A DNA stretch of 64,000 bases from contig CANLOY010000002.1 in NCBI GenBank assembly GCA_947493005.1, positions 124,001-188,000 on the forward strand, given 5' to 3'. The stretch's first letter is position 1, and every line of letters begins with the position of its first letter. Shown in pieces: positions 33,014-59,882 of this stretch. A program made the position numbers and the translations under genes. The notes beneath the pieces are model-generated. The model had not been told where the DNA came from. It saw only the letters and a program-made list of their open reading frames with translations, and did not search any database. The DNA comes from an uncultured Roseivirga sp. Its GTDB lineage: Bacteria; Bacteroidota; Bacteroidia; Cytophagales; Cyclobacteriaceae.

Positions 33014-33068
33014 TGCTCGATCAATTAGCTAGCTAATCCTCCCGAATAAGTACCCCATAACAGGTTAA

Positions 33069-36205: not shown

Positions 36206-36263
36206 CGGCCTGTTAATTTGGAATAGGCTTTGCTATAGTAAAAACGGTCAAAAACAAAAGAAG

Positions 36264-37861: not shown

Positions 37862-37889
37862 TAAAACCAAACCCCGTAACTAATAAAAT

Positions 37890-37930
37890 TGCCCCAAAAG
37901 ATTGATTTGATTTTGGGGCACTTTTTGTTT
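37890..37930 (+). terminator. Terminator after the TPR operon
   Basis: TGCCCCAAAA (37890-37899) pairs perfectly with TTTTGGGGCA (37911-37920), followed by CTTTTTG. Confidence 0.85.
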
Positions 37931-38032
37931 TTCTCCCCCTTTCACTCTCCATTTACTACATATTAGGGTGATAAAAACCCTACTGATGTACAGATTCTTT
38001 TGAGAAACCTAAATTCGAGTTATCTTCAATGC

Positions 38033-38509: not shown

Positions 38510-38530
38510 GTATTTTAACCCCTACAGTCA

Positions 38531-38989: not shown

Positions 38990-39083
38990 AAGCTGTCTTT
39001 AGCTGAAATCAGGTCAAATTTGATCGGAATTTCCCTTGTTATATTTAGCATATAGTAGTTTAGGTTATCTAAACTCAGGTAAA

Positions 39084-42355: not shown

Positions 42356-44723
42356 TCCTCAGGGTATTAATAGGGTTCAATCTACCTGTCTTGATCGATT
42401 GAAATAAAACCGTTCCAACAGCTATAACTATTGAAAAGAAAGCCGCTATAAGGAAAATACCAATTGTTATAGGAATTCTCTGAACAAATCCCTGTAACCA
42501 AAGGTCTACTCCATATATTGCAAGGGGTACTGAAATGAGAAAAGCCACGAGTATTAATTTGATAAAATGAAAACTAAAAAGCTTGACAAGATTTTTAACA
42601 CTTGCTCCAAGCACCTTTCTAACACCAAACTCATGCACTCTTTGATCGGCAACAAAAGAAGCTAATCCAAAGAGGCCAAGGCAGGAAATAAAAATGGCAA
42701 GGATGGTAAACAACAATACTGCATCTGCATCTTGTTTTTCTTTGGCCAACTGGCTTTCAAAGTTTTGGTTCAAATAGTAATAGTCAAAAGGTTCATTAGT
42801 GAACTCATTCCAAACCTTTTCGATTTCGGTTAAAGGCGCAATGTCAGCGTTTATTCTTAATGTAAGGCGATTATGATGCTCAGGACTATGCATAAACATT
42901 ACAGGCCCTATTTCATTCCTGAAATCGTCATAGTAAAAATCTTCTACGACTCCGACTATCCTCCAATAATCACCCAATACTTTGCCAATAGGCTCTTCAA
43001 AACCAAGTTGTCTTAAAGCCGCCTGGTTAATCACAATCAAGGAATCGGCCTGTTCTTTTTGAGTATTAAACCATTCCCCTTCTAAGAGTTTAAAATCAAG
43101 TACTTGCTGTAAATATTGGTCTGTTTGAAAGCCTTCAAAAGACATGCTAGTTTCTTCATCCAACATTGTCGAAGTGATATTGGACGAACCATCCGCAGGA
43201 AGTCTATAAGTAAAACTACTAGCTTCAACTCCGGATAATCTTAGGAGCTCTGTACGAAGTGCATATTTGTTTTCGCCTAGTACACCGGCAGCAGGTAAGA
43301 CAATCACTTGATCCTTTTCAAAACCCAGATTTAGATTCTTTAGAAACTTGAGTTGACTATAGACAAATAATGCTCCGATAATTAACGTTGATGAAATTGT
43401 AAATTGAAGAACCACTAAACCATTCCTTAAAAATTTAGCAGAGCCCAAGTTTAATACATTTCCCAACTTCATTCCCTTTAGCAATGGAAGCATTTTGACT
43501 GATGATAAATAGAAGGCTGGATAAATTCCTGCAACTAAGCCCAGAGAGAATGTACCAAAGGCAAAGTAAATAAGTAAAGCAGGATAGTTCATAAGAGAGA
43601 CCCCAATGACTTCTCCCATTGATTGATTAATCAACTTTATGAATAGTTCTGACAAGCCTCCGGCAATTAATGCCGATAAGAAAGTGATCAATAAGGACTC
43701 GAAAAGAAACTGTCTGATTAAACTTGAACGTTCAACACCGAGTACTTTTCTAACTCCAATCTCTTTTGTCCTCAATGATGACCTCGCTGTTGTAAGGTTC
43801 ATAAAATTGATTGCCGCAATCACCAAAATAAAGATTGATATTAAACTCAGTGTAATTCGAGTCTGTCTATCACCATTATTTCCTATTTCAAATTGCAGGT
43901 TAGACTCAAGGTATATATCTCTGATAGGCTTAGCATAAAACCTCACCGTATTCTCAGAGTTTAGCCATTCTTCTACAGATAGTCCGCCATTTCCATGTAC
44001 CACTGGATAAGCATGCTTTTCACTTAAAGCATCCAACTTTACATTGAGGACCTCTTTCTCAATCTTGTTAGTGGTTTTGACATAAGTGTAACCACCGATA
44101 TTAAACCATTTATTAACATCATAAGCATCTGGTTCGCCTTTAAACCTTGCTAAATCAAAATCTAAATGGCTATTTATGACGGAGCTTTTTATAACACCAG
44201 AGATAAAGAAATCTCCATTATTTTCGAAATGTATTTTTTCACCAAGTACATTTACCCTGTTAAAGAACTTTATCGCAGCACTCTCGGAAATAACGATATC
44301 ACCCGGCTTTGACAAGGCCGTTTCAGGGTCTCCATACAGGAATTGATAGTCGAATACTTTAAAGAAACTCGTATCTGCAATCAAGGTTCTTTTCGTTTTG
44401 AATGCTATTTCATTAATAAAAAATTCACCATTCGAGAATTGCTGAAAACGAGTAAATTGTTCGACTTCAGGTATTTCATCAATAACATGTTGAAGATTGG
44501 AATTTGACCATGCCAACCTACCCATACTTAAAAAATGCTCCTCTACTCTATATATCCTATCATAATCTGAAAAGCCTTTTTCATAAGAGTTTTCCTGGAA
44601 TAAATAGAGGCTAATTACCAAAAATGCAGAAAGGCCAATGCTCAACCCTGTTACGTTGAGCAAGGAAAGCAATGGTCTTTTCAGAAATGATCTTACTGTA
44701 ACTTTTAGATGATGTCTTAACAT
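42348..44723 (-). CDS. FtsX/MacB-type permease 6
   Basis: 791 residues. Begins MLRHHLKVTVRSFLKRP, has SLRTKEIGVRKVLGVERSSL before the first FtsX block and HEFGVRKVLGASVKNL before the second, ending NPINTLRNE. The two halves look like an internal duplication. Starts 1 base after permease 5 ends, so translation is coupled. Confidence 0.88.
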   Translation of the reverse strand: MLRHHLKVTVRSFLKRPLLSLLNVTGLSIGLSAFLVISLYLFQENSYEKGFSDYDRIYRVEEHFLSMGRLAWSNSNLQHVIDEIPEVEQFTRFQQFSNGEFFINEIAFKTKRTLIADTSFFKVFDYQFLYGDPETALSKPGDIVISESAAIKFFNRVNVLGEKIHFENNGDFFISGVIKSSVINSHLDFDLARFKGEPDAYDVNKWFNIGGYTYVKTTNKIEKEVLNVKLDALSEKHAYPVVHGNGGLSVEEWLNSENTVRFYAKPIRDIYLESNLQFEIGNNGDRQTRITLSLISIFILVIAAINFMNLTTARSSLRTKEIGVRKVLGVERSSLIRQFLFESLLITFLSALIAGGLSELFIKLINQSMGEVIGVSLMNYPALLIYFAFGTFSLGLVAGIYPAFYLSSVKMLPLLKGMKLGNVLNLGSAKFLRNGLVVLQFTISSTLIIGALFVYSQLKFLKNLNLGFEKDQVIVLPAAGVLGENKYALRTELLRLSGVEASSFTYRLPADGSSNITSTMLDEETSMSFEGFQTDQYLQQVLDFKLLEGEWFNTQKEQADSLIVINQAALRQLGFEEPIGKVLGDYWRIVGVVEDFYYDDFRNEIGPVMFMHSPEHHNRLTLRINADIAPLTEIEKVWNEFTNEPFDYYYLNQNFESQLAKEKQDADAVLLFTILAIFISCLGLFGLASFVADQRVHEFGVRKVLGASVKNLVKLFSFHFIKLILVAFLISVPLAIYGVDLWLQGFVQRIPITIGIFLIAAFFSIVIAVGTVLFQSIKTGRLNPINTLRNE

Positions 44724-44724: not shown

Positions 44725-47118
44725 CTACTCGTCTCTTAATGATGTTACTGGATTGGCCGATGCCGCTTTCAGAGACCTGTAACTGGTGGTAAGCATAGCT
44801 ATTAATACGGACAGGCCTATACTGGCAATAAAAATAACTGGGCCAATACTGATACTGTACGCATACTCCTGAAGCCATGAATTCATACCAAAATATCCGA
44901 GTGGAGCCGCAAACAAGAATGCAATACCTACAAGTTTTAAAAACTCCAATGAGAAGTTCGAAACCAAACTTCTGACAGAAGCCCCCAGCACCTTTCTAAT
45001 TCCTATTTCTTTAGATTTCTGATTGGCCATAAAAGCAACCAAACCATACAATCCAAGGCAACCTATGAAAATGGATATTCCTGCAAATGTGGTTAGCATC
45101 TGAGACATCTTCTTTTCAGTTTCATAGAATTCCTGAATCTCCTGATCAATGAATCGGTAGTCAAATTCATATTCCTCATGCATATCGAACCAAATGCTTT
45201 CCAAAGATGATATTATCTCATCTGCTCTTCCCGCGTTTATCTTCAGTGCCACGGTATAATTTTGAGTTGCATCTGCAAACATCACCATAGGTTCTATCGC
45301 ATCAGAAAGTGTAGTTTGATGAAAGTCTTCAACAACACCCACTATTGGAAACTTTCTTCCCCAAACATTCATTGTTTCACCTATTGCCTCTTCAGGGCTT
45401 TTTACACCAGCTTTTGCAAGGAACCTTTCATTCACCACAAATTGGTTCATAGTATCACTCTTTGCTATCCAGTCGCCAGCAAGCATTCGAAGCCCGTAAG
45501 TCTCAGCATAAGACTCGTCTACTCTTTTAAATTGAACATCAATTTCAATCCTTGAAGTATCAGAATCATAGTAATATGCATTTGTTCCACTTATACTACC
45601 TGAGAATGGTGGGTGAGAATTTACAGAGCTTGCCTTAACACCTGGTAAGTCTGCAATCCTTGATTTCCACAGCTTTTGTTTTTCCAGGTCATTTTCGGCC
45701 ATATTGAAGAAAAGTACCCACTCCTTATCATAACCCATATCCACAGAGTTAAAATAGTTCATTTGCTTTACAGCTACTATGGTTCCAAAAATCAGTAGCT
45801 GACAAAGGAAGAACTGAAAGGCTACTAAAGCCCTTCTCAGAAACATGTTGTTTCCCTTAGAGTCTAAAGCTCCTTTTAATGCTGTAATAGGCCTGGCGCC
45901 AGACAACACAAATGCAGGGTATAAGCCGGCTAATAATGAAACGGAGATCAGAATAATCAAAAGGTATAATACAAGCATACCATCATTGATCAAGGAGAAG
46001 GTAATTTGTCTATCAACGAAATCGTTGATCACCATTGGGATTAAACGCTCGGTAATGGCAATGGATAATAAAAGAGAAACAAGTGTGATAAAGAAAGTCT
46101 CTCCTAAAAAGCGCGCAACCAATTGCTTTCTGCTACTGCCCAACACCTTACGCATCCCCACTTCTTTTGCTCTTTTAACAGCCATAGCCGTTGACATATT
46201 GATGAAGTTAAAACAAGCAGTTACGATAAGGAAAAGACCTATAGCAGCGTATGTCCAAAGTAATTGCTTGGAAGAGCTACCTCCGAAAGTATTGAACCTG
46301 TCATCAAAATGGTAATCCTCTAAAGCAGATAAAACAAAAGCTCTTTCTTCCCTTTGTTCCTTATCCCAGTGCTTTTCTACGAAATCAGGAAATTGAGCCT
46401 CCACATCCTCAGGAAGTGTGTTTGGAGCCAATTGAACAAACATTACATTGTCACTACTAATGCTATTCCATGTATTAAAATTATCTACACTCCTTTTGGT
46501 TTCCATAGAAATAAAGATTCCAAATGGGAAATCAGAATCCTTTCGAGCATCCTCAAGAACTGCTGTCACTAGTAAGTCTCTCTCTTTGTTAAGTCTTATT
46601 GTTTTCCCAACTGCAGACTCATTTGGAAAATACTTCTCCGCTACCTTCTTGCTCAGCGCCACCGTATTAGGCTCATTGAAAGACTTTTCAACAGCACCTT
46701 CCAATATATCCCAATCGAACATTTCGAAAAAGCTAGGTTCCACATAAACTAATTCAGGAGATTCTTCATAGTATTTAATCTGACCGTCTTTTTCTGTAAC
46801 GGAAATCAAGCCATATCTTCTATGAGATATCAAAGTGGTGTTTACCAAACCTACTATCTCATCGGCTACAGCTTCCTCCATCACCAATGGAACCCCACCC
46901 TGTGGATATTCATTACCATCAACATAATCGATATGACCAACTCTGTAAATAGAATTGAGATTACTATGATATTGGTTAAAACTGAGTTCCTCTTTTACAA
47001 TCAGAAATATGATAAGGCTGCAAGTAATCCCTAGTGTTAAACCCAATACATTGATTAATGTGAAGGCCTTGTTTCTTACTATGTTCCTAATTAAGATTTT
47101 GAAGTAGTTCTTAAACAT
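44725..47118 (-). CDS. FtsX/MacB-type permease 5 (first of unit 2)
   Basis: 797 residues. KRAKEVGMRKVLGSSRKQL and KEIGIRKVLGASVRSL mark the two FtsX blocks; the end is NPVTSLRDE. It belongs with permeases 1 and 2 by shared NLSTA/NMSTA and GCLGLYGLVAFMANQK segments. A 157-bp gap upstream carries its own promoter with regulator boxes (47149-47269). Confidence 0.9.
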   Translation of the reverse strand: MFKNYFKILIRNIVRNKAFTLINVLGLTLGITCSLIIFLIVKEELSFNQYHSNLNSIYRVGHIDYVDGNEYPQGGVPLVMEEAVADEIVGLVNTTLISHRRYGLISVTEKDGQIKYYEESPELVYVEPSFFEMFDWDILEGAVEKSFNEPNTVALSKKVAEKYFPNESAVGKTIRLNKERDLLVTAVLEDARKDSDFPFGIFISMETKRSVDNFNTWNSISSDNVMFVQLAPNTLPEDVEAQFPDFVEKHWDKEQREERAFVLSALEDYHFDDRFNTFGGSSSKQLLWTYAAIGLFLIVTACFNFINMSTAMAVKRAKEVGMRKVLGSSRKQLVARFLGETFFITLVSLLLSIAITERLIPMVINDFVDRQITFSLINDGMLVLYLLIILISVSLLAGLYPAFVLSGARPITALKGALDSKGNNMFLRRALVAFQFFLCQLLIFGTIVAVKQMNYFNSVDMGYDKEWVLFFNMAENDLEKQKLWKSRIADLPGVKASSVNSHPPFSGSISGTNAYYYDSDTSRIEIDVQFKRVDESYAETYGLRMLAGDWIAKSDTMNQFVVNERFLAKAGVKSPEEAIGETMNVWGRKFPIVGVVEDFHQTTLSDAIEPMVMFADATQNYTVALKINAGRADEIISSLESIWFDMHEEYEFDYRFIDQEIQEFYETEKKMSQMLTTFAGISIFIGCLGLYGLVAFMANQKSKEIGIRKVLGASVRSLVSNFSLEFLKLVGIAFLFAAPLGYFGMNSWLQEYAYSISIGPVIFIASIGLSVLIAMLTTSYRSLKAASANPVTSLRDE

Positions 47119-47148: not shown

Positions 47149-47167
47149 TTACCAATTAAAATGCCAA
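47149..47167 (-). promoter_or_regulatory. Sigma-54-like -24/-12 promoter of permease unit 2
   Basis: On the minus strand: TTGGCATTTTAATTGGTAA, that is GG-N10-GG where sigma-54 promoters have GG-N10-GC. The same TTGG-N8-TTGGTAA occurs before permease 1 at the same distance from the upstream boxes. Located about 34 bases before the start codon. Confidence 0.65.
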
Positions 47168-47230
47168 TCTTTCAATAGATTGATTTTCAATTAATTATGC
47201 TCAAAAACCAAACTGAAGTAAATTGATTTA

Positions 47231-47269
47231 GTTTGTTTTTATAACACTGAACTGTTTGTTTTTGATACA
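47231..47269. promoter_or_regulatory. Paired enhancer boxes upstream of unit 2
   Basis: GTTTGTTTTTATAACA (47231-47246) and GTTTGTTTTTGATACA (47254-47269), start-to-start 23 bp. The second is identical to a box at 57051; the first differs from it at 3 of 16 positions. The near edge is 66 bp from the -24 GG, a typical place for binding of a sigma-54 activator. Confidence 0.65.
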
Positions 47270-47275
47270 GTTGAT

Positions 47276-49636
47276 TTACTGGTTTCTGAGTACTTGTGCT
47301 GGGTTTACTCTACTGGTTTTAAGCACTTGCAGTAATAACACAACAAGCACCAAAGTGATAGTAGTAATGATAGAAAAAGAGAACTCAGCCACTCCAGGTT
47401 GTATTCTATATACAAACTCTTCCAACCAACCGGAGATCATATAGTATACAACAGGTGCGGCAATCACAAAGCCTAAAGCTATCATGACGAGATAACCCTT
47501 TGCAAACAATGAGAATATTTGCTTGAATTCAGCACCTAAAACACGCCTTAAACTGATCTCTTTTGATCGTTGCTCTAGCGTGAAAGTTGAAAGTCCTATG
47601 AGTCCTAAGAGTGCTATAAATATGGCAAGCCCTGCAAACGAAAGGAATAACTTTCCGAGTCTCGATTCAGCCTTGTATTTGTTATCATAGTCCTGATCAT
47701 AGAATTTGAAGTCTAGGGGTCTTCCGCTATTAAGCTCATTCCATTTATCTTCAATCTGTGTCATTGTCTCCTTAATATTCAAAGGGGACAGCCTAACTAT
47801 TACATGACTTGATGAGTTTTTATTCAATGCAATACCGGTGGATCGTATTTCGCTCTTAAGTGATTCATTGTGAAAGTCTTTAACTACCCCAATTACTTTA
47901 AATTTCTTACCCCAAGCCTCAATACTCTTTCCTTCAAAACTATCCCATCCGAATTCCTTAACAGCAGCTTGATTAATTATCATCACTTTTTCATCCGTCT
48001 CGATAAAATCTCTCCCCTCAGCAATTTCCATTTTCAAGGTTTTTAAAAAGTCTTTATCCACGTTAAAAAAGTCAAAGACTACGCTCAATTCCAGATCACT
48101 TTCCAAATGATCATTGGTTAAGAAAGCAATATCATTCCAGTCGATTGCACTATTGGCCACGGAAACGGAATTAACTCCAGAAAGACGCTGTAACTCTGTT
48201 TTAAAAACATCTTCTTTCCCTATTATTTTGTCATGTGTCTTAATTTCAATCAGATGCTCTCTGTCGTATCCCAGGTTTTTATTCTGAATAAAATTCAACT
48301 GTTGCTGGATAATTACTGTTGCGACAATCAGTAATTGGGCTATGAAAAACTGAGAAACTATCAAGAACTTCCTCACTCTGTTCTTAGACTGAGTTCTGCT
48401 TCCCTGAAGTGCCTGAAGCGGGTTTGCTTTAGACAGGAAAAAAGCGGGATAAACTCCAGCAAAAAGACCAATAACAAGAGTTGTCCCTAGTATTATAAGT
48501 AAAAACTCTGTTGAGAAATAATCCAATGACATTTCTCTTTCCATCAACTGATTCAACAATGGTAAAACTCTTTCTGCAATTGCAAATGCGAACACCGAAC
48601 TGATAAATACCATTACAAATGACTCTGCCAGATAGAACCTTACCATTTGACTTTTAGATGCACCAACCACCTTCCTCAGTCCAACTTCTTTGGATCTCTT
48701 CATAGATTGTGCTGTGGTCAGGTTTGTATAGTTTATGATGGCTATCAAAAGAATAAGAAAGCCAATAGCTGTAAACAAGTAAACATACCTGATATCGCTT
48801 GTATTTATTCTGGTAAAGTTAAGGTCCGACCTAAGATGAACATCAGTCAGATTCAACAGATGGTAGGGTAATTCAGGGCCAGACTCTTCATATATAGAGT
48901 TGTAGAACATAGACTCTTTGATTAGCTCGGCCATCTGTGTTCTTACTTGTTCAATATTATGTTCAGGATTAAGAAGTAACCAGTTTTGCGTAGGAAAGTA
49001 TCCATACTTTGAGTCCTTTTGACTAATCTCTCTCTCAAACATAGTTTCCCCAGACAACAGAAAATCAAATTCAATGCTTGAATTGGAAGGCAAATTGGCA
49101 AACACTCCTTTTACTTCGTAGGAAGTCTTCTCTTCAACCTTTAACACTTTCCCCATGGCGTTTTCAACACTTCCGAAGTATTTCGCAGCCGCAACTTCAG
49201 AGATCATTGCTATACCTGGCTGTTCAAAAGCATCTTCTTTTCCTGCTAAAAGATTAATATCGAAGACCTTGAAAATATCCCTCGATGTATAAGCTACATT
49301 GTTATTATAAAATGACTCCTCACCATTAGAAACCAGTTCGTTTCTACTTTGCAAACTAACAAGAGCCTCTACTGAAGGTACTTCCTCCCTGATTTCCTTG
49401 GCCATTCTGTAAGGTACACGAGAAGAATTCTGACCACTTTTCTGTCCTTCTTGCCATAGTAGAAAAACATTATCCTTTCTACTATTGTGTTGATCAAAGC
49501 TTAATTCACTCTTAATAAAAAGGGCTATCAGTAAAACAGTAGCCAATCCTACTGTAAGGCCACTTAAATTGAGAAGAGTAAAAAGTTTCTCTCTTTTAAA
49601 TTTTCTAAAAAATGTACGTAGGTAAGTTTTAAGCAT
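47276..49636 (-). CDS. FtsX/MacB-type permease 4 (last of unit 1)
   Basis: 786 residues, the shortest of the seven. MKRSKEVGLRKVVGASKSQM and RSKEISLRRVLGAEFKQI precede the FtsX blocks. The C terminus is NPAQVLRNQ, the only one ending in Gln. Lies 11 bases after permease 3; the following gap carries the unit 2 regulatory boxes. Confidence 0.88.
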   Translation of the reverse strand: MLKTYLRTFFRKFKREKLFTLLNLSGLTVGLATVLLIALFIKSELSFDQHNSRKDNVFLLWQEGQKSGQNSSRVPYRMAKEIREEVPSVEALVSLQSRNELVSNGEESFYNNNVAYTSRDIFKVFDINLLAGKEDAFEQPGIAMISEVAAAKYFGSVENAMGKVLKVEEKTSYEVKGVFANLPSNSSIEFDFLLSGETMFEREISQKDSKYGYFPTQNWLLLNPEHNIEQVRTQMAELIKESMFYNSIYEESGPELPYHLLNLTDVHLRSDLNFTRINTSDIRYVYLFTAIGFLILLIAIINYTNLTTAQSMKRSKEVGLRKVVGASKSQMVRFYLAESFVMVFISSVFAFAIAERVLPLLNQLMEREMSLDYFSTEFLLIILGTTLVIGLFAGVYPAFFLSKANPLQALQGSRTQSKNRVRKFLIVSQFFIAQLLIVATVIIQQQLNFIQNKNLGYDREHLIEIKTHDKIIGKEDVFKTELQRLSGVNSVSVANSAIDWNDIAFLTNDHLESDLELSVVFDFFNVDKDFLKTLKMEIAEGRDFIETDEKVMIINQAAVKEFGWDSFEGKSIEAWGKKFKVIGVVKDFHNESLKSEIRSTGIALNKNSSSHVIVRLSPLNIKETMTQIEDKWNELNSGRPLDFKFYDQDYDNKYKAESRLGKLFLSFAGLAIFIALLGLIGLSTFTLEQRSKEISLRRVLGAEFKQIFSLFAKGYLVMIALGFVIAAPVVYYMISGWLEEFVYRIQPGVAEFSFSIITTITLVLVVLLLQVLKTSRVNPAQVLRNQ

Positions 49637-49647
49637 GACAGGTTTGT

Positions 49648-52032
49648 TTATTCGTTTCTAAGTGCCTTAATCGGGTTTGCAGCAGCCGTCTTAACAGATC
49701 TTAAGACTACAATAACCAAGTTCAATAGCATTGCGGTAAAGGCAACCACAACAAAAGGTTTTACACTTATTGAGGTATGGTAAGCAAAGTCATTCATCCA
49801 TGACGAGACTATGTAATAAGATAGTGGTACTGAAATCAAAAGCGCTATTCCTACAAGTACTAAAAGCTCTTTGCTAAGCATGGAGAGGATTTGAGCAACT
49901 GTAGCTCCTAATACCTTTCTGATGCCAATTTCTTTGATTCGCTGATCAAGTTTGTAGCTTATTAAACCAATCAAACCCAAAACGGCCACAAATACAGCAA
50001 GTCCTGTAAACAGGCTAATAATCTGCCCCAACCTTTCTTCTTTCTCAAAAAGCCTGTCAAATCTTTGATCAAAGAAATAATAATCAAAAGGTTGATTGCT
50101 AAAACCAGCATAAACTGATTTTATATGGTCGATAGTTTCTCTCAAGTCTCCGCTGACCCTGATATTTATTTGAGACGTAAGCGGTCTGTAGAAAAAAGCA
50201 ACAGGGCCAATAGCTCTGCTGAAATCCTGAAAATGGAAGTCTTCAACTACCCCAACAATCTCTACATCCCTACCGTTAAAATTGGCATCAAACCTTCTTC
50301 CCAATACATCTCCACCCAACTGTTTTGCCAAAGATTCGTTCACTACCATGACATCCATGGATCGATCCATCTGATTATCAAAATCTCTTCCAGAAACCAA
50401 CTTCATTTTCATTGTAGATAAAAACTGCTCATCGGTATACTTATATTGGATTTGTTGGTATTCCGAATCAGGAGTAAGCTCAATCATGCCACTCAAAGGC
50501 AGTTGATTAATCATACTATAATGGCTATAGGATACTCCGCCTATTCCAGTATTCTTTAACAATTCATTTCTAAAAGGTTCAACGTTCTGATCTTCATCAC
50601 CAAGTTGGCTCTTACTGTTATCAACTATAATTACATTGTCCTTTTTAAAACCAAGATCTTTCTCCAAACTATAGTGTAACTGCTTTGATACAAACAATGT
50701 AAACACTGCCAAAAGCAGAGAAACAGCTATTTGAAATACCACAAGAGAACCTCTAAAGATTTTACTCTTGTTACCCACCTTAAAATCTCCTTTAAGAACA
50801 GCCGAAGGTTTAAATTTTGTCAAATAAAATGCAGGATAAATACCAGCCATAAACCCAGTAACAACCGCTATTAGCAACATTCCCCCTAAAAGTTCTGGGT
50901 GCTGAAATGTGTTAACTGAAAACTCATTTAAACCTATTGCTTCAATTACTTTTAAAGCTACTTCTGCCAAACCGAAGCCTATGATAACGGACATTATGGA
51001 CACTAAAATGGATTCCATTAAAAACCTGCCCATAAGTTGCTTCCTGAATGAGCCTAAAACAGTCCTTACCCCTATTTCTTTTGCTCGTTTTGAAGCTTGA
51101 GCTGTAGCAAGGTTCACATAATTAATAGCTGCCAGAACAATTATAAAAATGGCTACTGCAACAAAAATGTAGAGATGCTTCTCACTACCAGGTTCAGAAG
51201 CTTCGAACTGAATATCAGAATTCAAATGAATATCTTTCAAAGGAAGTACCCAAAGACCTGAACTATAATTCTCCTTAAATTCGTCCAGACTCTTACCTTC
51301 TCCAAACCTTTCATGGTCTACTACAGCAAAAACATCTTCAATTCTTTGCCTTAACCTTTTGATATCAGACTTGCCTCTTGTTTTAAAGTAGCTGTATCCA
51401 GTTGTATAGTTAAAATTTCCTCTTACATCATCAACCAGATTTTTGGGCGTCTTGGCGAGTAGTGAAAACCGTAAGTGAGTATTTCCTGGTAAATCAGGGA
51501 CAACGGCTTTCACCCTATAAATATCTTCCGAAAGCTGTGTAGAAACAGTAACCTCATTACCTATTGGGTTACTCTTGCCAAAAAGCTTCTCAGCAAGTGA
51601 AGCTGTCAAAACAAGTCCATCAGGCGTTGATAAAGCTTCATCTGTACTTCCATAAATTGCCTCCAGATCGAAAACATCAAAGTAATCTTCTCCGGCATAG
51701 TAAACAGAATTATCTACAAATTGCTGTCCATTATTCAGTGACAATGTCGCTGAAGGGTTTGGCATCAAACAGATTGTAGATTCGACCTCTGACATCTCCG
51801 CCTTAATCTTATCCATATGAGCAAGAGATGAAAAGGCAAAGCTCTTTGCGCTTAATCTGTAAATGCGCTCATGGTTATCGAAATGCCGATCGTAAGTAAT
51901 CTCTCCTACCACATAAACTGCTATGAGTAAAGCTGAGGCAAAACCAATGGCCAGGCCACTTATGTTAATAGCGGTATACCCCTTATTTTTCTTAAGGTTT
52001 CGGATTATAGAAATCAGATGGTTTTTGAACAT
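49648..52032 (-). CDS. FtsX/MacB-type permease 3
   Basis: 794 residues. Starts MFKNHLISIIRNLKKNKG; the FtsX blocks follow SKRAKEIGVRTVLGSFRKQL and KEIGIRKVLGATVAQIL; ends NPIKALRNE. The first periplasmic domain is the most divergent of the set. Only 2 bases separate it from permease 2. Confidence 0.88.
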   Translation of the reverse strand: MFKNHLISIIRNLKKNKGYTAINISGLAIGFASALLIAVYVVGEITYDRHFDNHERIYRLSAKSFAFSSLAHMDKIKAEMSEVESTICLMPNPSATLSLNNGQQFVDNSVYYAGEDYFDVFDLEAIYGSTDEALSTPDGLVLTASLAEKLFGKSNPIGNEVTVSTQLSEDIYRVKAVVPDLPGNTHLRFSLLAKTPKNLVDDVRGNFNYTTGYSYFKTRGKSDIKRLRQRIEDVFAVVDHERFGEGKSLDEFKENYSSGLWVLPLKDIHLNSDIQFEASEPGSEKHLYIFVAVAIFIIVLAAINYVNLATAQASKRAKEIGVRTVLGSFRKQLMGRFLMESILVSIMSVIIGFGLAEVALKVIEAIGLNEFSVNTFQHPELLGGMLLIAVVTGFMAGIYPAFYLTKFKPSAVLKGDFKVGNKSKIFRGSLVVFQIAVSLLLAVFTLFVSKQLHYSLEKDLGFKKDNVIIVDNSKSQLGDEDQNVEPFRNELLKNTGIGGVSYSHYSMINQLPLSGMIELTPDSEYQQIQYKYTDEQFLSTMKMKLVSGRDFDNQMDRSMDVMVVNESLAKQLGGDVLGRRFDANFNGRDVEIVGVVEDFHFQDFSRAIGPVAFFYRPLTSQINIRVSGDLRETIDHIKSVYAGFSNQPFDYYFFDQRFDRLFEKEERLGQIISLFTGLAVFVAVLGLIGLISYKLDQRIKEIGIRKVLGATVAQILSMLSKELLVLVGIALLISVPLSYYIVSSWMNDFAYHTSISVKPFVVVAFTAMLLNLVIVVLRSVKTAAANPIKALRNE

Positions 52033-52034
52033 GG

Positions 52035-54458
52035 CTATTCGTTTCTAAGTGAGTCAACAGGGTTGGACATGGCAGCCTGAAATGACCTGAGCCCCGTAGT
52101 TACCATTCCTATGACTACTGTAAAGCCAATAGCAATAATAAACATCCATACATTAAGAGATATACTATACTCAAAATTTGCCAGCCAGCTACTCATTAGG
52201 TAATAACCAATCGGAGCAGCTATGAGAAAGGCAATCAAAATCAGTACTAACAATTCCTTCGAGAAAATCTGAAGTATCTGATTTATCGAAGCTCCTAACA
52301 CCTTTCTTATACCTATTTCCTTCCTTTTTTGCGCGGCCATAAATGAAATCAGACCATAAAGTCCAAGACAACCTATGAGAATGGTGATTCCTGAGAAGAC
52401 CTGAAAAAGGGTTAGTGTATCAGACTCTTTTTTATAATTCCTCATAATTTGATCTGAAAGCAAATTGTAGTCAAAAAGAACTTCAGGATATTCTCTTGTC
52501 CAGACTTTTTCAAGCGTTGCTACTAAGTCATTGAATTGAGCATCAGAACCTTCAAAACGAATGGCTCCTTCATAGAAATACCCAGGAAACCTGACCATAA
52601 TCATTGGATCAATTTTTTCTCTTAAGCTCTTATTATGAAAATCCTTGAATACGCCTACTATCTTCTTGTCACTCCCAAAACCAGTTTGAATATTCAATCC
52701 TATAGCATCTTCTGGATTTTCAATTTCCATTAGCTTTAGTATCTCGGTAGATACTAAGGCCTCTGTTAAGGTATCTGTTAGTTTTATATCTCTTCCTGCC
52801 AATAATTCTACATCATACAACTTCAAGTAATTCTCGTCTATAACTTTAAAAGCCACATCAAATCTACCGTCTGTATCTAACGGTGCATAACCGAAGTCGG
52901 AGGATATGTTGGATTCATTCATTGGGCTGGCAAACGCATAGCTGACCAATTCAACACCCGGGAATCTCAGCAGCTCATTCTTCATTGGGTTAAGTTTTCC
53001 CACTTCGTTCGATGGTAGAGGAAATGTAATAATAGAAGTCTTCTTAAACCCAAGCTCCTGATTTTCAAAGTATTTCATTTGAGAAACTACTACCAAGGTG
53101 CAGATCACAAGTACCTGGGAAATGAAGAACTGAAAAATTACCAACCCTCTTCTTGTATTGATATTGCCAGACAAAGCAGACTGTCCTTTGCCTCTTAGCA
53201 CCGATACTGGCTTTAAAGATGAAAGGATCAACGAAGGATAAAGCCCTGCAAATAATGTTACACTTATTACTACAACTGCTACTAGCGTCAAGAGCGTGAG
53301 ATCACCGAATAAATCAAGAGATAAATTATATCCAATCAAACTTTCCATATTCGTCATAATCAACTCTGCAACGCCCATGGAAAGTATTACTGAAACCAAG
53401 GTTATCAAGAAGGTTTCGCCAAGAAACTGAAAAATAAGCTGAGCTTTAAAACCGCCAAGAACCTTACGTATACCTACTTCTTTTGACCTTTTAATAGCTA
53501 AAGCTGTAGATAAATTCACAAAATTGATACACGCTGTTAGTATCAAGAAAACACCAACAGCTATTCGAATACTCAATAATTCGTGAGTCTGAGCTAAATC
53601 CCCATAGTTATTAAATTCAGGTTCAAAATGAATATCCCCTAAAGCCTGTAACTCGTAGGTGGTTTTATTTCCAGTGGCGGGTATATATTTTTCTCCAAAA
53701 CCAGGCAGTACATCTCTAACCTGCTCTGGTCTTACATTCTCGTTTGTCAAAAAATAAACTTGTGCATTGGAGGATGTTGAAGTCCATGATTCAGGTTGAT
53801 AAAAATCAAATATTCCTTCTAAGGCTTCGTATTCCATTAAAATTTTAAAAGGAAGCGATGAGTTTTTCGGAGGGTCTGCTACCACGCCCGTTATAAACAC
53901 TTCCACCTTACTATTTAACTTGACTTTTTTTCCTAAAACCCTATCATATCCACCGTCTGTTACTCCAAACAACTTCTCTACCAGTGAAATAGAAATTACT
54001 GCGGAATTGGGTTTGGTCAAAGCCGTCCTAGCCTCTCCTATTTTCCATTCGTAGTCAAAGAGATCGAAGAATTCCGGATCAACAAATGCAATTCCATCCT
54101 TTTGTTCATAATGCGTCCAATCGCCAGTGATGTTCTCAACACTTAATTGATTCTCACCAATATAGAAAGTACGAACAGGCGTTCCCAGATCAGGGAAATC
54201 GGTTTTAAATGCTTTTGCGAATGGGTTTTGAATACCTGCTTCTCGCTCCACTAAATTTGGGCTCTCCACCTTTTTTATAAAACGGTAGAGTCTGTCATAT
54301 TTACTCTGATACTGATCAAAGCTCTTTTCAAACAAAACAATCTTGAAAAGTACCAAAGCGGCACTGATACCAAGCGCCAATCCAAATACATTGATAATAG
54401 TGAAACTCTTATTTCTGATAAGATTTCTTATTGCTGTTATAAAGTAGTTCTTTAACAT
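52035..54458 (-). CDS. FtsX/MacB-type permease 2
   Basis: 807 residues. IKRSKEVGIRKVLGGFKAQL and KEIGIRKVLGASINQILQI mark the two halves; ends NPVDSLRNE. Shares with permeases 1 and 5 the GCLGLYGLISFMAAQKRKE segment. Twenty-three bases downstream of permease 1 in the same unit. Confidence 0.88.
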   Translation of the reverse strand: MLKNYFITAIRNLIRNKSFTIINVFGLALGISAALVLFKIVLFEKSFDQYQSKYDRLYRFIKKVESPNLVEREAGIQNPFAKAFKTDFPDLGTPVRTFYIGENQLSVENITGDWTHYEQKDGIAFVDPEFFDLFDYEWKIGEARTALTKPNSAVISISLVEKLFGVTDGGYDRVLGKKVKLNSKVEVFITGVVADPPKNSSLPFKILMEYEALEGIFDFYQPESWTSTSSNAQVYFLTNENVRPEQVRDVLPGFGEKYIPATGNKTTYELQALGDIHFEPEFNNYGDLAQTHELLSIRIAVGVFLILTACINFVNLSTALAIKRSKEVGIRKVLGGFKAQLIFQFLGETFLITLVSVILSMGVAELIMTNMESLIGYNLSLDLFGDLTLLTLVAVVVISVTLFAGLYPSLILSSLKPVSVLRGKGQSALSGNINTRRGLVIFQFFISQVLVICTLVVVSQMKYFENQELGFKKTSIITFPLPSNEVGKLNPMKNELLRFPGVELVSYAFASPMNESNISSDFGYAPLDTDGRFDVAFKVIDENYLKLYDVELLAGRDIKLTDTLTEALVSTEILKLMEIENPEDAIGLNIQTGFGSDKKIVGVFKDFHNKSLREKIDPMIMVRFPGYFYEGAIRFEGSDAQFNDLVATLEKVWTREYPEVLFDYNLLSDQIMRNYKKESDTLTLFQVFSGITILIGCLGLYGLISFMAAQKRKEIGIRKVLGASINQILQIFSKELLVLILIAFLIAAPIGYYLMSSWLANFEYSISLNVWMFIIAIGFTVVIGMVTTGLRSFQAAMSNPVDSLRNE

Positions 54459-54481
54459 CTTTCGTTTCTTAAGAGTTTCAC

Positions 54482-56920
54482 TTACTCATCTCTAAGTGAG
54501 CTGATTGGATTGGCTGTAGCTGACCTGAATACCTTCAAACTAATTGTAATAGTGGCAATAAACAGAGTTGCTAAAATTCCGAGTACAAACACTTTTGCGC
54601 CTAATTGTATATGATAGACATAACCTTCCAACCATCCGTTCATAATGAAATATGAAAGTGGGCAAGCCAATGCAAAAGCAATTCCAACTAAGACAAGTAC
54701 TTCTCTAGAGAAAATTCCAAGAATACTTGAAACCGTTGCTCCCAAAACTTTTCTGATTCCAATCTCTTTTACTTTCTGATTGGCCATAAAAGACACTAAA
54801 CCATACAGTCCTAAACAACAGATGAATATGGCCATACCAGCAAAAATCTGGAAAAGACCTGCTACCTTTTGCTCAGATTCATACTGACCGGTAATCTTAT
54901 CTTCCATGAAGTCATAGGTAAACACATCGTTTAAAAACACATTACTCCATATACCTTCTACTTGATCTATCACCGCCCTATAGCTCTCTGACCCACCTTC
55001 CAGAGCTACACCCGCTTCAAAATACTGTTGAGGACCTTGCATCATGAATACTGGGTCAATTTCACTATGAAATGAATTATTATGAAAATCCTCAACTACT
55101 CCAACTATGTAAAAAGAAGCATTGTAAGTCATGTTAAAACGTTGCCCTATAGCATCCTGTGGATTGGTAAAACCAAGACTTTCAGCTAGTCTTCTGTTAA
55201 TCACTGTATGATCTCTTGGAGATTCTTCTTTGTAATAAGCTCCCGCTACTAGTTTTAAGTCGAACAATTCTCCATATGTCGGGTCAACATTTTTTCGGTT
55301 AGCCCTAATTCCATCCTGATTCTCTCCTTTTGGATCTTCAATCGTGTCTACATTATTGGTATTAGAAGCTCCAGGTGTAGCCACGAAGAAACTCATATCG
55401 CTGATACCTGCAATTGATGATAACTGTGTCCTGAGCAACTCCATATTCTCAGGAGTTCTATCCGGAATAGGAAAGGTCAACACACCTTTAGACTTAAACC
55501 CTATTGGTTGGTTTCTCATGTAGTCCATTTGAAACAAGACTACCAATGTACCAACGATCAGTGCTTGAGAAATCAAGAATTGAAAAACCACCAAGCCTCT
55601 TCTAATTGAGAAACTCGCCTTGTTTGTCTTAGTTGTCAAACTGCTATTTTTAATAGCATGAACCGGGTTATAATTGGCAAGTACCACTGATGGATAAAAG
55701 CCTGAAAGAATGGTAACCAGTATAAGAAGCCCAACTAAAAACAATATAGTACCTGGCTCTGAAATAAGGTTTAGTCCAAGGTTATATCCTAAAACAGGTT
55801 CTAACCTCATTAATACCCCCTCGCTCAAAGCAAGAGATATCAAAATAGAGACCAGTGTGATAATAGCTACTTCACCGAGAAACTGTGAAACTATCTGTTT
55901 CTTTCCACTTCCCAGAACCTTTCTAATTCCAACCTCCTTAGCTCGCTTAACAGATTGTGCGGTTGCCAGATTGATAAAGTTGATAGCGGCAATAACAATC
56001 AATATGATGGCAATAATACTCATGCTATCCAGAGCACTCTGATCAACATAGCCATAAGCTCCTAGATCCGGATCTAAGTGGATATCAACTAAAGGCTGTA
56101 AGCCAAAATAAACCCCGGCTTCAACAGCGTCTACCCCAATATTCTTCAAATATTTAATAGAAGATTCTTTTAAAGCTGTCTCAGCCTGTTCTTTTGTTTG
56201 GCCATTCGCAAGCTTTACAAACATGCGTGTAGAACCATTTCTTGTTCCCCATGAAGTCAATCCATTAGCATATGGGTAAATTTTGGCGCCCTCATAAGAC
56301 ATTAAATAATCAATACCATAATCAGAGTTCTTTGGTGGATTGGCATACACAGCAGATACACTTAAGTTAAGTTTATTCTCAAACTTTAGTGTTTTACCTA
56401 TTATCGATTGGTAATTGCTACCATTCAAACCAAACAACTTATCTGCTCCATCTGCAGAAAGTGCTATTGTATTTGGCTCACCAAGCACTCCTTCCGGATT
56501 TCCTGCGATAATGTCAAAATCAAACATTTCGAAAAAATCGGATTCCACAAAAGCCATATTATTAGGCTGTTTGATTTTAGTTTGTACACCCTGATCATTT
56601 TCAGAAATGAAAACACCATCATAATACCAATGGATTCTGGAAACCTTCCAATCGCCATAATCCAATGCAATGGCAGGTCCGAGTGGGTGCATTACAGAAG
56701 CAGATTTCTGAACATCGCCATCGTTGTCCTGAATAAGGTTGATTCGATAAACACTTTCGGCATCTGTATGATAAGAATCAAAGCTCTTTTCAAATGCAGT
56801 AATTCTGTATATCACAATTGTCCCTGTAATACCAAGTACAAGGCCTAACACATTGATAATTGCGAAAACACGGTTCCTCAATAGGTTCCTTACTGCGGTC
56901 TTCAAATAATTTCTGAACAT
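54482..56920 (-). CDS. FtsX/MacB-type permease 1 (first of unit 1)
   Basis: 812 residues, the longest. TM1 at about 20-42, periplasmic MacB-like domain to about 285, then FtsX helices after VKRAKEVGIRKVLGSGKKQI; the second half has KEIGIRKVLGATVSSIL and ends NPISSLRDE. In the family these proteins act with an ATPase in efflux, lipoprotein release or cell-envelope signalling; none is encoded nearby, so the partner is elsewhere or absent. Divergent from the response regulator, with a sigma-54-like promoter in between. Confidence 0.9.
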   Translation of the reverse strand: MFRNYLKTAVRNLLRNRVFAIINVLGLVLGITGTIVIYRITAFEKSFDSYHTDAESVYRINLIQDNDGDVQKSASVMHPLGPAIALDYGDWKVSRIHWYYDGVFISENDQGVQTKIKQPNNMAFVESDFFEMFDFDIIAGNPEGVLGEPNTIALSADGADKLFGLNGSNYQSIIGKTLKFENKLNLSVSAVYANPPKNSDYGIDYLMSYEGAKIYPYANGLTSWGTRNGSTRMFVKLANGQTKEQAETALKESSIKYLKNIGVDAVEAGVYFGLQPLVDIHLDPDLGAYGYVDQSALDSMSIIAIILIVIAAINFINLATAQSVKRAKEVGIRKVLGSGKKQIVSQFLGEVAIITLVSILISLALSEGVLMRLEPVLGYNLGLNLISEPGTILFLVGLLILVTILSGFYPSVVLANYNPVHAIKNSSLTTKTNKASFSIRRGLVVFQFLISQALIVGTLVVLFQMDYMRNQPIGFKSKGVLTFPIPDRTPENMELLRTQLSSIAGISDMSFFVATPGASNTNNVDTIEDPKGENQDGIRANRKNVDPTYGELFDLKLVAGAYYKEESPRDHTVINRRLAESLGFTNPQDAIGQRFNMTYNASFYIVGVVEDFHNNSFHSEIDPVFMMQGPQQYFEAGVALEGGSESYRAVIDQVEGIWSNVFLNDVFTYDFMEDKITGQYESEQKVAGLFQIFAGMAIFICCLGLYGLVSFMANQKVKEIGIRKVLGATVSSILGIFSREVLVLVGIAFALACPLSYFIMNGWLEGYVYHIQLGAKVFVLGILATLFIATITISLKVFRSATANPISSLRDE

Positions 56921-56945
56921 AATTGGGTTCTTTTATAAGCCTTTA

Positions 56946-56964
56946 TTACCAAAACTGAGACCAA
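56946..56964 (-). promoter_or_regulatory. Sigma-54-like -24/-12 promoter of permease unit 1
   Basis: On the minus strand: TTGGTCTCAGTTTTGGTAA, again GG-N10-GG, about 28 bases before the permease 1 start codon. Matches the unit 2 element in TTGG-N8-TTGGTAA and in its distance from the paired boxes. Confidence 0.65.
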
Positions 56965-57027
56965 ACTCGTAACAATCTATTAATCAATGATTTATAATTT
57001 TTAAATAATTAATTTAGGAGAATATCC

Positions 57028-57066
57028 GTTTGTTTTCAATACATTTAAGTGTTTGTTTTTGATACA
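57028..57066. promoter_or_regulatory. Paired enhancer boxes between permease 1 and its regulator
   Basis: GTTTGTTTTCAATACA (57028-57043) and GTTTGTTTTTGATACA (57051-57066), start-to-start 23 bp, 66 bp from the -24 GG of unit 1. The second box ends 8 bases before the regulator's ATG, so occupancy should also affect the regulator's own expression. Confidence 0.65.
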
Positions 57067-57074: not shown

Positions 57075-58451
57075 ATGCCCAAAACCGAAGCCAAAATATT
57101 GGTTGTCGATGATGACATTGACATTTTAAATACAGCAAGAATGTATTTGAAACAGCAATTCACGCTGGTTCAAATAGAAAACAATCCAGAGAACATTCCT
57201 CTCCACTTCGAGAGAGAGTCATTTGATGTAGTATTGCTGGACATGAACTTCCGTAAGGGAGAAAACGATGGTTCTGACGGTCTCAAGTGGCTAAATACTG
57301 TTCTGGACATTGACCCTAATGCTATAGTTATACTCATCACAGCTTATGGTGAGTTCGACCTTGCTGTTAAAGCTATAAAAGCTGGTGCCACCGATTTTAT
57401 TACAAAACCATGGAAAAACGAAAAGCTGTTCGGCACCATAACTTCCGCTCTACAACTAAGAAAAAGTAAGCTCGAGGTTGATAAACTTAAAAGCACACAA
57501 AAGACCATTGCCAGTGATCTGGATCAAAAGCAAGGGAGTTTTCTTGGAGAATCGGAACCAATGCAAAGGGTGTTCTCACTAATAGACAAAGTAGGGCCTA
57601 CCGATGCTAACGTTTTGATACTGGGTGAAAATGGCACTGGAAAAGGGCTTGCTGCACGGGCGCTTCATAAACAATCCGATCGATCTGATAAGGTCTTTAT
57701 TAGTGTTGATTTAGGTTCTATCAGTGAAACACTCTTTGAAAGTGAGTTATTTGGCCATGTAAAAGGTGCCTTTACTGATGCCAAAGAAGATAAACCAGGT
57801 CGTTTTGAGTTAGCATCTGACGGTACTTTGTTTCTAGATGAAATAGGTAATCTATCTTTACCGCTTCAATCGAAGTTGCTTTCTGTTCTACAGCAGCGAA
57901 AGGTTAGCAGAGTAGGCTCTGGAAAAGAAATTGATATTAACATCCGGCTCATTTGTGCTACGAATATGCCATTATATGATATGGTTAAGGAGGGCACTTT
58001 CAGACAAGATTTACTTTACCGAATTAATACTGTTGAAGTAAGAATGCCATCACTGGCCGAACGCAAAGAAGACATGGAGTTTTTGGTTAAGCACTTTGTT
58101 GATACTTATTCCAAAAAGTATAAAAAGCAGAACATGAGAATTGACGCTGCTACCATGAACAAATTAAAACGTTACAACTGGCCAGGTAATATTCGTGAAT
58201 TGCAGCATGCTATAGAAAGGGCTATTATCTTATCGGATGACAACAAACTTTCTACCAATGACTTCCTTCTGCAAACCGCTAATAGTGGTTCCGAGAAAAC
58301 ACAGGATGAAACCTTGAACCTCACTGAAATGGAAAAAAGACTGATTCTAAAAGCGCTAGACAAAAATAATGGTAACGTAACACGTGCCGCAAAAGAATTA
58401 GGACTGGATAGGCTAGCACTCTATAGAAGGCTTCAGAAGTATGGGTTGTAA
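57075..58451 (+). CDS. Sigma-54-dependent response regulator (NtrC family)
   Basis: 458 residues. Receiver domain 1-~120 with phospho-acceptor Asp56 (DVVLLDMNF) and the TKPW Lys. AAA+ domain ~145-385: Walker A GENGTGKG (consensus GESGTGKE), loop GAFTDA (usual GAFTGA), Walker B GTLFLDEIG, and arginine finger region FRQDLLYRINTVEVRMP. A Fis-type helix-turn-helix ends the chain (GNVTRAAKELGLDRLALYRRL). It presumably activates both permease units through the paired boxes. Confidence 0.93.
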   Translation: MPKTEAKILVVDDDIDILNTARMYLKQQFTLVQIENNPENIPLHFERESFDVVLLDMNFRKGENDGSDGLKWLNTVLDIDPNAIVILITAYGEFDLAVKAIKAGATDFITKPWKNEKLFGTITSALQLRKSKLEVDKLKSTQKTIASDLDQKQGSFLGESEPMQRVFSLIDKVGPTDANVLILGENGTGKGLAARALHKQSDRSDKVFISVDLGSISETLFESELFGHVKGAFTDAKEDKPGRFELASDGTLFLDEIGNLSLPLQSKLLSVLQQRKVSRVGSGKEIDINIRLICATNMPLYDMVKEGTFRQDLLYRINTVEVRMPSLAERKEDMEFLVKHFVDTYSKKYKKQNMRIDAATMNKLKRYNWPGNIRELQHAIERAIILSDDNKLSTNDFLLQTANSGSEKTQDETLNLTEMEKRLILKALDKNNGNVTRAAKELGLDRLALYRRLQKYGL

Positions 58452-58529: not shown

Positions 58530-59882
58530 ATGGTATCTAAACGGTTTGCTTTCTTGGTCATTTTAAGGATAGTGTTGCTTATGCTAACCTTAACTGCCCT
58601 AGCATTTATTTTCGCTCGAACTGAATTGTTTTTCAATCAGATTATTTTATTGGGTGTAATTATTCTTCAGGTTTCTGAACTTATTAGGTTTATCACGCAC
58701 ACTAACAGAGAGTTGGCCAAACTTTTAATGGCCATTCGTTATTCAGATTTTTCTATCTCATTCAAAGGCAATAAAAAGGGTAAGTCATTCAAAGAACTTC
58801 AGGAAGCCTTTGTTGAGATTATAGAAGCTTTTAAAAAAGTTAGTGTAGAAAAAGAAGCTCAATTCAGGTTCCTCAAAGTAATGGTAGACAACATCAAAGT
58901 TGGTGTCATTGCTATTAAAGAGGAATACTCAATAGAATTAATCAATGAAGGGGCTCAGGGTTTACTCAAGATTGGCAGCCCAAATTACTGGAAACAATTT
59001 CAACAAATACTTCCACATTTTTCACAAGAAATATCGGACATGGAAGACGGTGAAAAGAGGCTCCTGGAGTTAAACATTAAAGGAGAAAGGCTACAAATTT
59101 CTGCTCAGGTTAACCGCCTTAAGATACTTAACTACAGGTATACAATTATCACTTTCCAGGATATCAAGAGTGAAATTGAGCAAAAAGAAATCGAGGCATG
59201 GCATAAACTGATAAGAATTCTGACTCATGAAATCATGAATTCTGTAACTCCAGTGACCTCCTTAACCGAAACGATGTTGATGCTACTTCAAAACGAAGGC
59301 AAACCATTGACCCTTCAAGAACTTTCAGAAGAAACCCTGGAAGACCTAAGGTTTTCTCTAAAAACTATTCAAAAACGTAGTGAAGGTTTATTGCACTTTG
59401 TAGACGACTATAGAAGTTTAACAAGGATTAAGTCTCTGGAATTGGAAGAAGTAGAAACCAGGGGGCTATTAGAAGAAATTGTGATGTTGTTAAAGACTGA
59501 GGCTGAAAAAGATGGAATTGAACTGCACATAAAATCTCCAAGCCATCTGTTTATTGATATGGATAGAAAACTTATTGAACAGGTCTTAATCAATCTTATT
59601 ACTAATGGGCGTCATGCAACACAAGGCAAACCAGACGGCCAAATTAGCATAAAAGCATACAGCGATAGGGATTCCAAAATAATTGAAATAACAGATAATG
59701 GTAATGGTATAGAAACAGCTAAACTAGAGCAAATTTTTATTCCTTTCTATTCAACAAAAGAGCAAGGTTCTGGTATAGGACTTAGTCTTTCTAAGCAGAT
59801 TATGAAGAAACATAAAGGGGATCTGAGTGTAAAGTCAGAACCAGGTGTTGGTTCTACTTTCTACCTCACTTTCAGGAGGTAA
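58530..59882 (+). CDS. NtrY-like sensor histidine kinase
   Basis: 450 residues. Two TM helices (about 8-28 and 34-52) enclose only a short loop, so there is no sizeable periplasmic sensor. A PAS-like region (~115-215) follows, then the H-box ILTHEIMNSVTPVTSL, N-box NLITNGRHAT and G-boxes DNGNGIE and GSGIGLSLSKQIM. It lies 78 bases after the response regulator and is its obvious partner. The stimulus is probably intracellular or within the membrane. Confidence 0.92.
   Translation: MVSKRFAFLVILRIVLLMLTLTALAFIFARTELFFNQIILLGVIILQVSELIRFITHTNRELAKLLMAIRYSDFSISFKGNKKGKSFKELQEAFVEIIEAFKKVSVEKEAQFRFLKVMVDNIKVGVIAIKEEYSIELINEGAQGLLKIGSPNYWKQFQQILPHFSQEISDMEDGEKRLLELNIKGERLQISAQVNRLKILNYRYTIITFQDIKSEIEQKEIEAWHKLIRILTHEIMNSVTPVTSLTETMLMLLQNEGKPLTLQELSEETLEDLRFSLKTIQKRSEGLLHFVDDYRSLTRIKSLELEEVETRGLLEEIVMLLKTEAEKDGIELHIKSPSHLFIDMDRKLIEQVLINLITNGRHATQGKPDGQISIKAYSDRDSKIIEITDNGNGIETAKLEQIFIPFYSTKEQGSGIGLSLSKQIMKKHKGDLSVKSEPGVGSTFYLTFRR

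Follow-up and report, generated by a model that had tools for sequence, protein, structure and literature searches.

The closest described counterparts of the system analysed here are the E. coli glnAp2 and zraP promoters, whose -24/-12 motifs are tabulated in PMC4591121 and which we take to represent the type that combines an NtrC-type enhancer with a -24/-12 sigma-54 promoter. The present work concerns a window of 64,000 nucleotides from an uncultured Roseivirga sp. (Bacteroidota; assembly GCA_947493005.1, contig CANLOY010000002.1, positions 124,001 to 188,000), in which two runs of permease-size genes are each preceded by two boxes and a candidate sigma-54 promoter. Next to them, an NtrC-family response regulator is encoded on the plus strand at 57075..58451 (hereafter regulator 57075). 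Like the glnAp2/zraP type, the locus has paired upstream boxes, an activator with receiver, sigma-54 AAA+ and Fis-type helix-turn-helix (HTH) domains (all assigned with Pfam; an NtrC-family activator had been proposed from the sequence alone), GG-N10-G spacing and an rpoN gene in the genome. It differs in having G for C at -12, in its boxes (TGTATC..CAAACA) and in the activator loop, which reads GAFTDA in the translation. The layout is that of an ordinary activator-plus-sigma-54 switch, and it is the -12 base that is unusual. Each permease unit is probably served by a sigma-54 promoter activated by regulator 57075, in which the requirement for C at -12 is relaxed.

An earlier study used promoter matrices to predict that FtsX-like permeases (COG0577) of Bacteroidia are under sigma-54 control (PMC12316311). 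According to the accessible parts of that paper, the matrices started from 720 validated promoters of 56 species, were then iterated per class, and are accompanied by the consensus TGGCACN5-7TTGCT. The target-gene class and the sigma factor are the same as those considered here; the regulator, its boxes, the fixed geometry and the comparison of -12 base and RpoN go beyond that study as far as its accessible text shows, and its class logos may already display a different -12 base for Bacteroidota. No -12 form belonging to Bacteroidota was found in the titles and abstract openings searched in the open-licence PMC literature, and a word look-up in the accessible text of PMC3162934 and PMC11704786 gave no mention of Bacteroidetes.

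Layout of the two permease promoters

In front of both units, on the minus strand, a far and a near box are followed after 63 bp by TTGG-N8-TTGGTAA. At the four-permease unit (unit 5, ATG at 56920), the predicted far activator box TGTATCAAAAACAAAC lies at 57051..57066 and is conserved in orthologs, while the near box TGTATTGAAAACAAAC, predicted by sequence match, occupies 57028..57043 and the predicted sigma-54-type promoter TTGGTCTCAGTTTTGGTAA 56946..56964. At the three-permease unit (unit 1, ATG at 47118), sequence matches place a far box identical to that of unit 5 at 47254..47269 and a near box TGTTATAAAAACAAAC at 47231..47246; the predicted promoter TTGGCATTTTAATTGGTAA lies at 47149..47167. 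At both units, 23 bp separate the two box starts; the near-box edge is 63 bp from TTGG and, as originally described, 66 bp from the first G of its GG. The same boxes had been claimed for both places, which holds for the far box; the near boxes deviate from it at two (57028) and three (47231) positions. The distance to the start codon, originally put at about 30 bp, is 30 bp at unit 5 and 35 bp at unit 1 when counted from the leading G of the -12 GG. Both promoters have GG at -24 and G at -13 at the fixed spacing expected of sigma-54, and both have G in place of the C at -12 (TTGC).

The far box of unit 5 stops 8 bp short of the regulator ATG, and that of unit 1 starts 6 bp past the stop codon of the permease gene 47276-49636. 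The 63-bp spacers of the two units are unlike (24 of 63 positions identical, against a shuffled mean of 21.4), and therefore do not point to the region having been duplicated recently as a whole. The window boxes are themselves only weakly symmetric, and their dyad nature is presumed; clear dyads occur in relatives.

Single boxes with at most three mismatches occur seven times in the window, compared with 2.01 times in shuffles, and one shuffle in 100 reaches seven. With the same tolerance, a scan of the 4.88-Mb genome, as had been proposed, found the box pair of period 23 at just these two places, and its reversed control gave none. The accompanying scan for the promoter string was less telling, since TTGG-N8-TTGGTAA alone is not clearly above chance (12 occurrences genome-wide versus 10 for the pattern read backward). 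The significance lies in the combination of elements and in its conservation, not in the promoter string alone.

In the mechanism that we propose, the activator would be held by two boxes about two helical turns apart, always 63 bp from the -24 element on its upstream side, and regulator 57075 would remodel the sigma-54 polymerase at GG-N10-GG. One regulator would switch on both MacB/FtsX-type permease runs, and autoregulation is possible, as one far box adjoins the start codon of the regulator gene. The promoter would retain the -24 element, the spacing and the TTG, and would drop the usual -12 C. Binding, activation and start sites are all predictions from sequence. Locally, the gain would be a named regulator, its predicted binding sites and, as its targets, two operons encoding MacB/FtsX-type permeases, all directly testable.

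Conservation among relatives of the regulator

A scan of GTDB contigs yielded 127 relatives of regulator 57075, of which the best 80 were kept. Two of these (L059 and L067), with less than 300 bp of upstream sequence, were left out of the 4-mer, dyad and ortholog box and promoter analyses, which cover 78 relatives. L184, a neighbouring stretch, was not used. The 14 closest orthologs, of Roseivirga type, are 79-89% identical to the regulator. Loss of the boxes from orthologous loci had been named beforehand as a point to check: beside the regulator, the pair with period 23 and gap 63 is kept in 13 of the 14, and in the exception (L041) the far box is changed (TGTTTGTTTTCAAACA, centred at -95.5) with near box and gap unchanged. 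The -12 base at this position is G in 12 orthologs, T in L029 and C in L042. Three orthologs have a second unit at the same locus, with a gap of 63 and G in L030, a gap of 63 and A in L042, and a gap of 64 and A in L029.

Among relatives at about 55-60% identity, many bear different, clearly dyad boxes (TGTCCG-N4-CGGACA, CGTTCA-N4-TGAACG). Beyond the closest 14, 38 loci bear a promoter of the same form. Measured from the -24 GG, 24 of these have a dyad centred at -62.5 to within 1 bp, 15 have one at -82.5, and 13 have dyads at both positions. The recognition helix of the activator reads ..LDRLALYRR.. among loci with TGTATC-type boxes and usually ..LTRSSLYRR.. with GTCCG/GTTC boxes. This suggests that helices and box types differ in step, in a split that is not clean and in which the box classes come from a loose pattern.

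The -12 base across the promoter family

In an unbiased count of 4-mer pairs upstream of the 78 relatives, the top pair was TGGC-N7-TTGG, tied with the overlapping GGCA-N6-TTGG at 44 of 78 loci (shuffled mean for TGGC-N7-TTGG, 0.7). TGGC-Nk-TTGC stayed below four loci at every spacing from 4 to 12. Sites were then scored blind to the -12 base, at 9 or more of 10 matches to TTGGCAC-N5-TTG. For this purpose, the 80 loci were divided into 66 of Cytophagales type and 14 of Saprospirales type or other, the latter removed by title and, where read, by RpoN residue 389. The titles of a few of the 66 are vague (e.g. L075, L083, L092); within the 14, the title alone decided the placing of L094 and L104, the RpoN helix was not obtained for L102 and L107, and L103 is misplaced (its title says Cytophagales), although it gave no site and the counts are unaffected.

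The 49 sites of the Cytophagales-type loci carry G 42, A 4, C 2 and T 1 at -12. The 14 other loci gave C 4 and A 1, and 40 more loci, from other orders of the same class, gave A 10, C 1, T 1 and G 1 (13 matches, versus 2 to 7 at each of the other spacings). Outside the Cytophagales-type loci, the sites together amount to A 11, C 5, T 1 and G 1, a small sample of 18 in which some weak sites are possibly due to chance. When two dyads at the proper distance were required, with the -12 base unused for selection, the Cytophagales-type loci gave G 23, T 1 and A 1, the 14 others C 2, and the 40 further loci A 6 and T 1 (other spacings, 0 to 4); some dyads of this set look weak.

A further 120 activator regions were picked by hand: nine from the window's own genome, 53 covering 55 of the 63 places of one set, and 58 of the 105 places of a second set. 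They were kept outside the main counts because strong N5-spaced promoters were few: three in the own genome, the window included (T 1, A 1, G 1), three at order/family level (G 3), five at class level (C 3, G 1, A 1) and six at phylum level (C 3, G 2, T 1). Their two-dyad sites gave G 4, C 1 and A 1. One of these regions (L202) is apparently the L080 contig (equal length of 354845, same promoter). A class-wide genome count with the pattern TTGGCACNNNNNTTGGY, which matched in 133 of 197 genomes, was set aside for its low per-genome counts; its reversed control contains CpG and is a poor one.

Variation is also found within the window's own genome. The pattern TTGGCAY-N5-TTG has 24 sites there against 12 for the reversed pattern, and 13 of the 24 are intergenic, compared with about 9% expected from the noncoding share of the window (8.6%; p ~1 × 10−8). 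These 13 sites carry A 5, T 4, G 3 and C 1 at -12. Besides the unit 1 promoter, the other 12 are each followed at 10 to 180 bp by a correctly oriented open reading frame (ORF) of at least 80 amino acids. A fourteenth site (L454, C at -12) falls inside a short ORF. It is the last in a set of three paralogous promoters that lie within 1.8 kb of each other on a single contig, share TTGGCAC..CATTG and have A, T and C at -12.

These three near-identical promoters (L452, L453 and L454; contig C8, 13.2-15.0 kb) precede paralogous small genes, and the one small paralog tested had no match in Pfam. Elsewhere in the genome, TTGGCACAACCATTGAT stands 51 bp before the start of a dnaK-type (HSP70) gene (L448, contig C5, 123.1 kb). 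Heat-shock genes are reported to be linked to sigma-54 in Bacteroidota in the accessible text of PMC12316311.

The RpoN recognition helix

The absence of rpoN had been named as a finding that would speak against a sigma-54 promoter. The genome has one match over the cut-off, and a phylum-wide sample of 198 Bacteroidota genomes, each at least 90% complete, has rpoN throughout. The recognition helix was compared in 107 Bacteroidota RpoN sequences (70 distinct helices), one of the 108 at hand having been dropped as a fragment without the helix (L334); at least two genomes are represented by two entries each (G014 = G373 and G145 = G384, with identical contig coordinates). All have Asp-377, Ile/Val/Leu-378, Ser-379 and Arg-383. 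In E. coli and in nine of nine further non-Bacteroidota (eight Pseudomonadota and one Bacillota), positions 377 and 378 are His and Glu. One structure paper assigns recognition of the conserved GC at -12 to His-377, Ser-379 and Arg-383 (PMC9770992), and another paper describes Glu-378 and Arg-383 as highly conserved (PMC5505868). Bacteroidota RpoN is therefore changed at one reported contact and at one neighbour of it. The likely reason for a variable -12 base would be this replacement of His-377 and Glu-378 by Asp-377 and Ile/Val/Leu-378, a causal link that we infer. Since Saprospirales-type loci with Asp-377 mostly keep C, the change would permit other bases rather than force them.

The replacement of Tyr-389 by Ser/Ala/Thr in Cytophagales RpoN was also considered as the cause of G at -12, and this idea was weakened. 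For 16 Cytophagales-type loci the RpoN of the genome was read, and residue 389 is Ser, Ala or Thr in every case; in the Saprospirales-type ones it is Phe or Tyr. Against it, the own genome has A, T and C sites under the same RpoN, and two Pseudomonadota have Ser (Methylobacterium) and Cys (Rhodobacter) at 389; the idea rests on a single lineage. The L077 genome also has a second RpoN, with Tyr-389; this divergent rpoN (L335) encodes the helix DLSTVSRITCNKY.

Comparison with E. coli and alternative explanations

For comparison, 13 E. coli K-12 stretches, chosen as sigma-54 targets, were scored with the same -12-blind method. With 9 of 10 matches required, they gave C 6 and T 1; lowering this to 8 of 10 gave C 10, T 2, A 1 and G 1. 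A chromatin immunoprecipitation sequencing (ChIP-seq) study of E. coli lists intergenic-sense motifs (PMC4591121); in the part of that list available, which was found with a motif program and leans to the consensus, we counted C 38, T 3 and A 1 at -12 among 42. Limited to the -12-blind threshold, this list has C at 13 of 16. The single C among the 13 intergenic sites of the own genome differs from the E. coli list with p ~5 × 10−8 for the whole set and ~1 × 10−4 for the restricted set, values that ignore relatedness and site selection.

Taken together, these results favour a sigma-54 promoter with a relaxed -12 base at both permease units. The -12 base varies among the predicted promoters of this genome and, with less certainty, elsewhere in the phylum, and Cytophagales-type loci mostly keep G in this promoter family. 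More widely, the feature seems to be the loss of the -12 C, not a phylum-wide GG, and it seems most visible in this genome; the relaxation may extend over the phylum. More tentatively, and with rather more doubt than confidence, we suggest that sigma-54 of the whole phylum was re-specified: with His-377 and Glu-378 lost and the -12 C, which hardly varies in E. coli, not required, promoter families would have drifted to a -12 base of their own (G in Cytophagales-type permease promoters, mostly A in the other relatives sampled), and predictors trained on TTGC would miss much of the regulon. A single consensus is commonly given for the sigma-54 promoter, such as the one in PMC12316311. Should the -12 C be dispensable in Bacteroidota, too few members of their sigma-54 regulons are being predicted, and the phylum would offer a natural experiment on sigma-54 specificity.

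Several observations weigh against the proposed explanation. T and C replace G in two of the 14 orthologs (L029 and L042), two of the three second-unit promoters of orthologs have A, and the ortholog counts are not independent events. The sample outside Cytophagales is small, with some sites possibly there by chance, as the matches at other spacings in the 40-locus set illustrate. The 14 Saprospirales-type and other loci gave five sites, four of them with C, and each of the four C-site genomes has an RpoN with Asp-377, which is accordingly compatible with C. Finally, the loop of regulator 57075 is GAFTDA, not GAFTGA, although this form is general in its family: all 55 of the 80 relatives that gave a GAFTxA motif have GAFTDA, and the other 25 gave none.

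The alternative that survives best, though we find it somewhat unlikely, is promoter-by-promoter variation, in which the specificity of sigma-54 is unchanged, Asp-377/Ile-378 are neutral and G was inherited in one family. The T or A at -12 in four of the 42 E. coli ChIP-seq promoters, the restriction of G mainly to one activator family and the C kept by most Saprospirales-type loci with Asp-377 all suit it. It is at odds with the drop in C from 38 of 42 in E. coli to 1 of 13 in this genome (p ~5 × 10−8) and with the report, in the available text of PMC9770992, that His-377 contacts the GC element.

That Bacteroidota sigma-54 reads GG in place of GC as a phylum-specific form, as originally proposed, is improbable. 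The larger claim of a variant sigma-54 promoter under the neighbouring regulator is supported by rpoN, the activator domains and the conserved boxes and spacing; its phylum-specific part is not supported in that form, as G is found at 42 of 49 sites in Cytophagales-type loci and at 1 of 18 in other Bacteroidota loci. The former count would agree with it, as would the Ser/Ala/Thr-389 of the RpoNs read from those genomes, versus Tyr/Phe in other Bacteroidota. It conflicts with A 5, T 4, G 3 and C 1 under one RpoN in the own genome, with A, T and C at three paralogous promoters in 1.8 kb, and with residue 389 being Ser in Methylobacterium and Cys in Rhodobacter.

We give as little credit to a canonical GC that sits one base further on (TTG-GC), behind a spacer of 11 bp where 10 bp is usual. 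TTGGC is seen most often (TGGC-N7-TTGGC, 37 of 78 loci), and L042 and L220 are among the sites that fit GG-N10-GC by an alternative reading; yet both window promoters and several orthologs read TTGGT and have no GC there, the over-represented part is TTG at the standard spacing, and TTGA sites elsewhere have the same spacing. That the TTGG pairs are a housekeeping-type promoter or a repressor site would fit the near-chance frequency of the string alone in the genome, but is very improbable, as the spacing, the boxes and the neighbouring sigma-54 activator are conserved as a set.

Gene context

The regulator gene is followed on the plus strand by that of a histidine kinase partner (58530..59882; HATPase_c and translation). 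On the minus strand, the four-permease unit runs from a MacB/FtsX-type ABC permease at 54482..56920 (MacB_PCD and FtsX), through two ORFs of equal size at 52035..54458 and 49648..52032, taken from the ORF list and assigned as permeases by position, to a last MacB/FtsX-type permease at 47276..49636 (Pfam). The three-permease unit likewise has MacB/FtsX-type permeases identified with Pfam at its first (44725..47118) and last (39986..42355) positions, and between them an equal-size ORF from the ORF list, again a permease by position (42348..44723). MacB core and FtsX domains were found in all four of the seven permease ORFs that were tested (39986, 44725, 47276 and 54482), a feature shared with MacAB-type tripartite ABC export; another is that paralogous activators adjoin HlyD-type and ABC ATPase genes (L050, L196). 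Unlike MacAB-type export, the locus has seven permease-size ORFs in a row, and no ABC ATPase was found among the flanking ORFs tested, namely 10 of the 13 within 27502-39971 and four rightward from 57075.

The sigma-54 activator domain has 13 matches in the genome, ten strong (at least 218 bits) and three weak (28-34 bits). The loops of the ten are GAFTGA (3), GAFTDA (4), GAFTSA (1), GSFTGA (1) and GSFTDA (1). At least four activators of the genome belong to the family of regulator 57075, in a search that scored just four candidates per genome. Two of the other three family members (L194 and L197) adjoin a MacB/FtsX permease gene, and the third (L196) adjoins HlyD-type and ABC ATPase genes.

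Two contigs among the relatives, filed under Thalassovita (L107) and Thermoanaerobaculia (L104) metagenome-assembled genomes, bear Bacteroidota-like activators, and rpoN was not found in the L107 genome; for these reasons, both contigs may be misbinned.

In the own genome, an ABC ATPase gene (PF00005) on contig C1 at about 526.4 kb (L437, L483) is preceded at 37 bp by TTGGCATATAAATTGGTAA. This site has the promoter form of the permease units without the box pair, and the gene could supply the ATPase for the window permeases.

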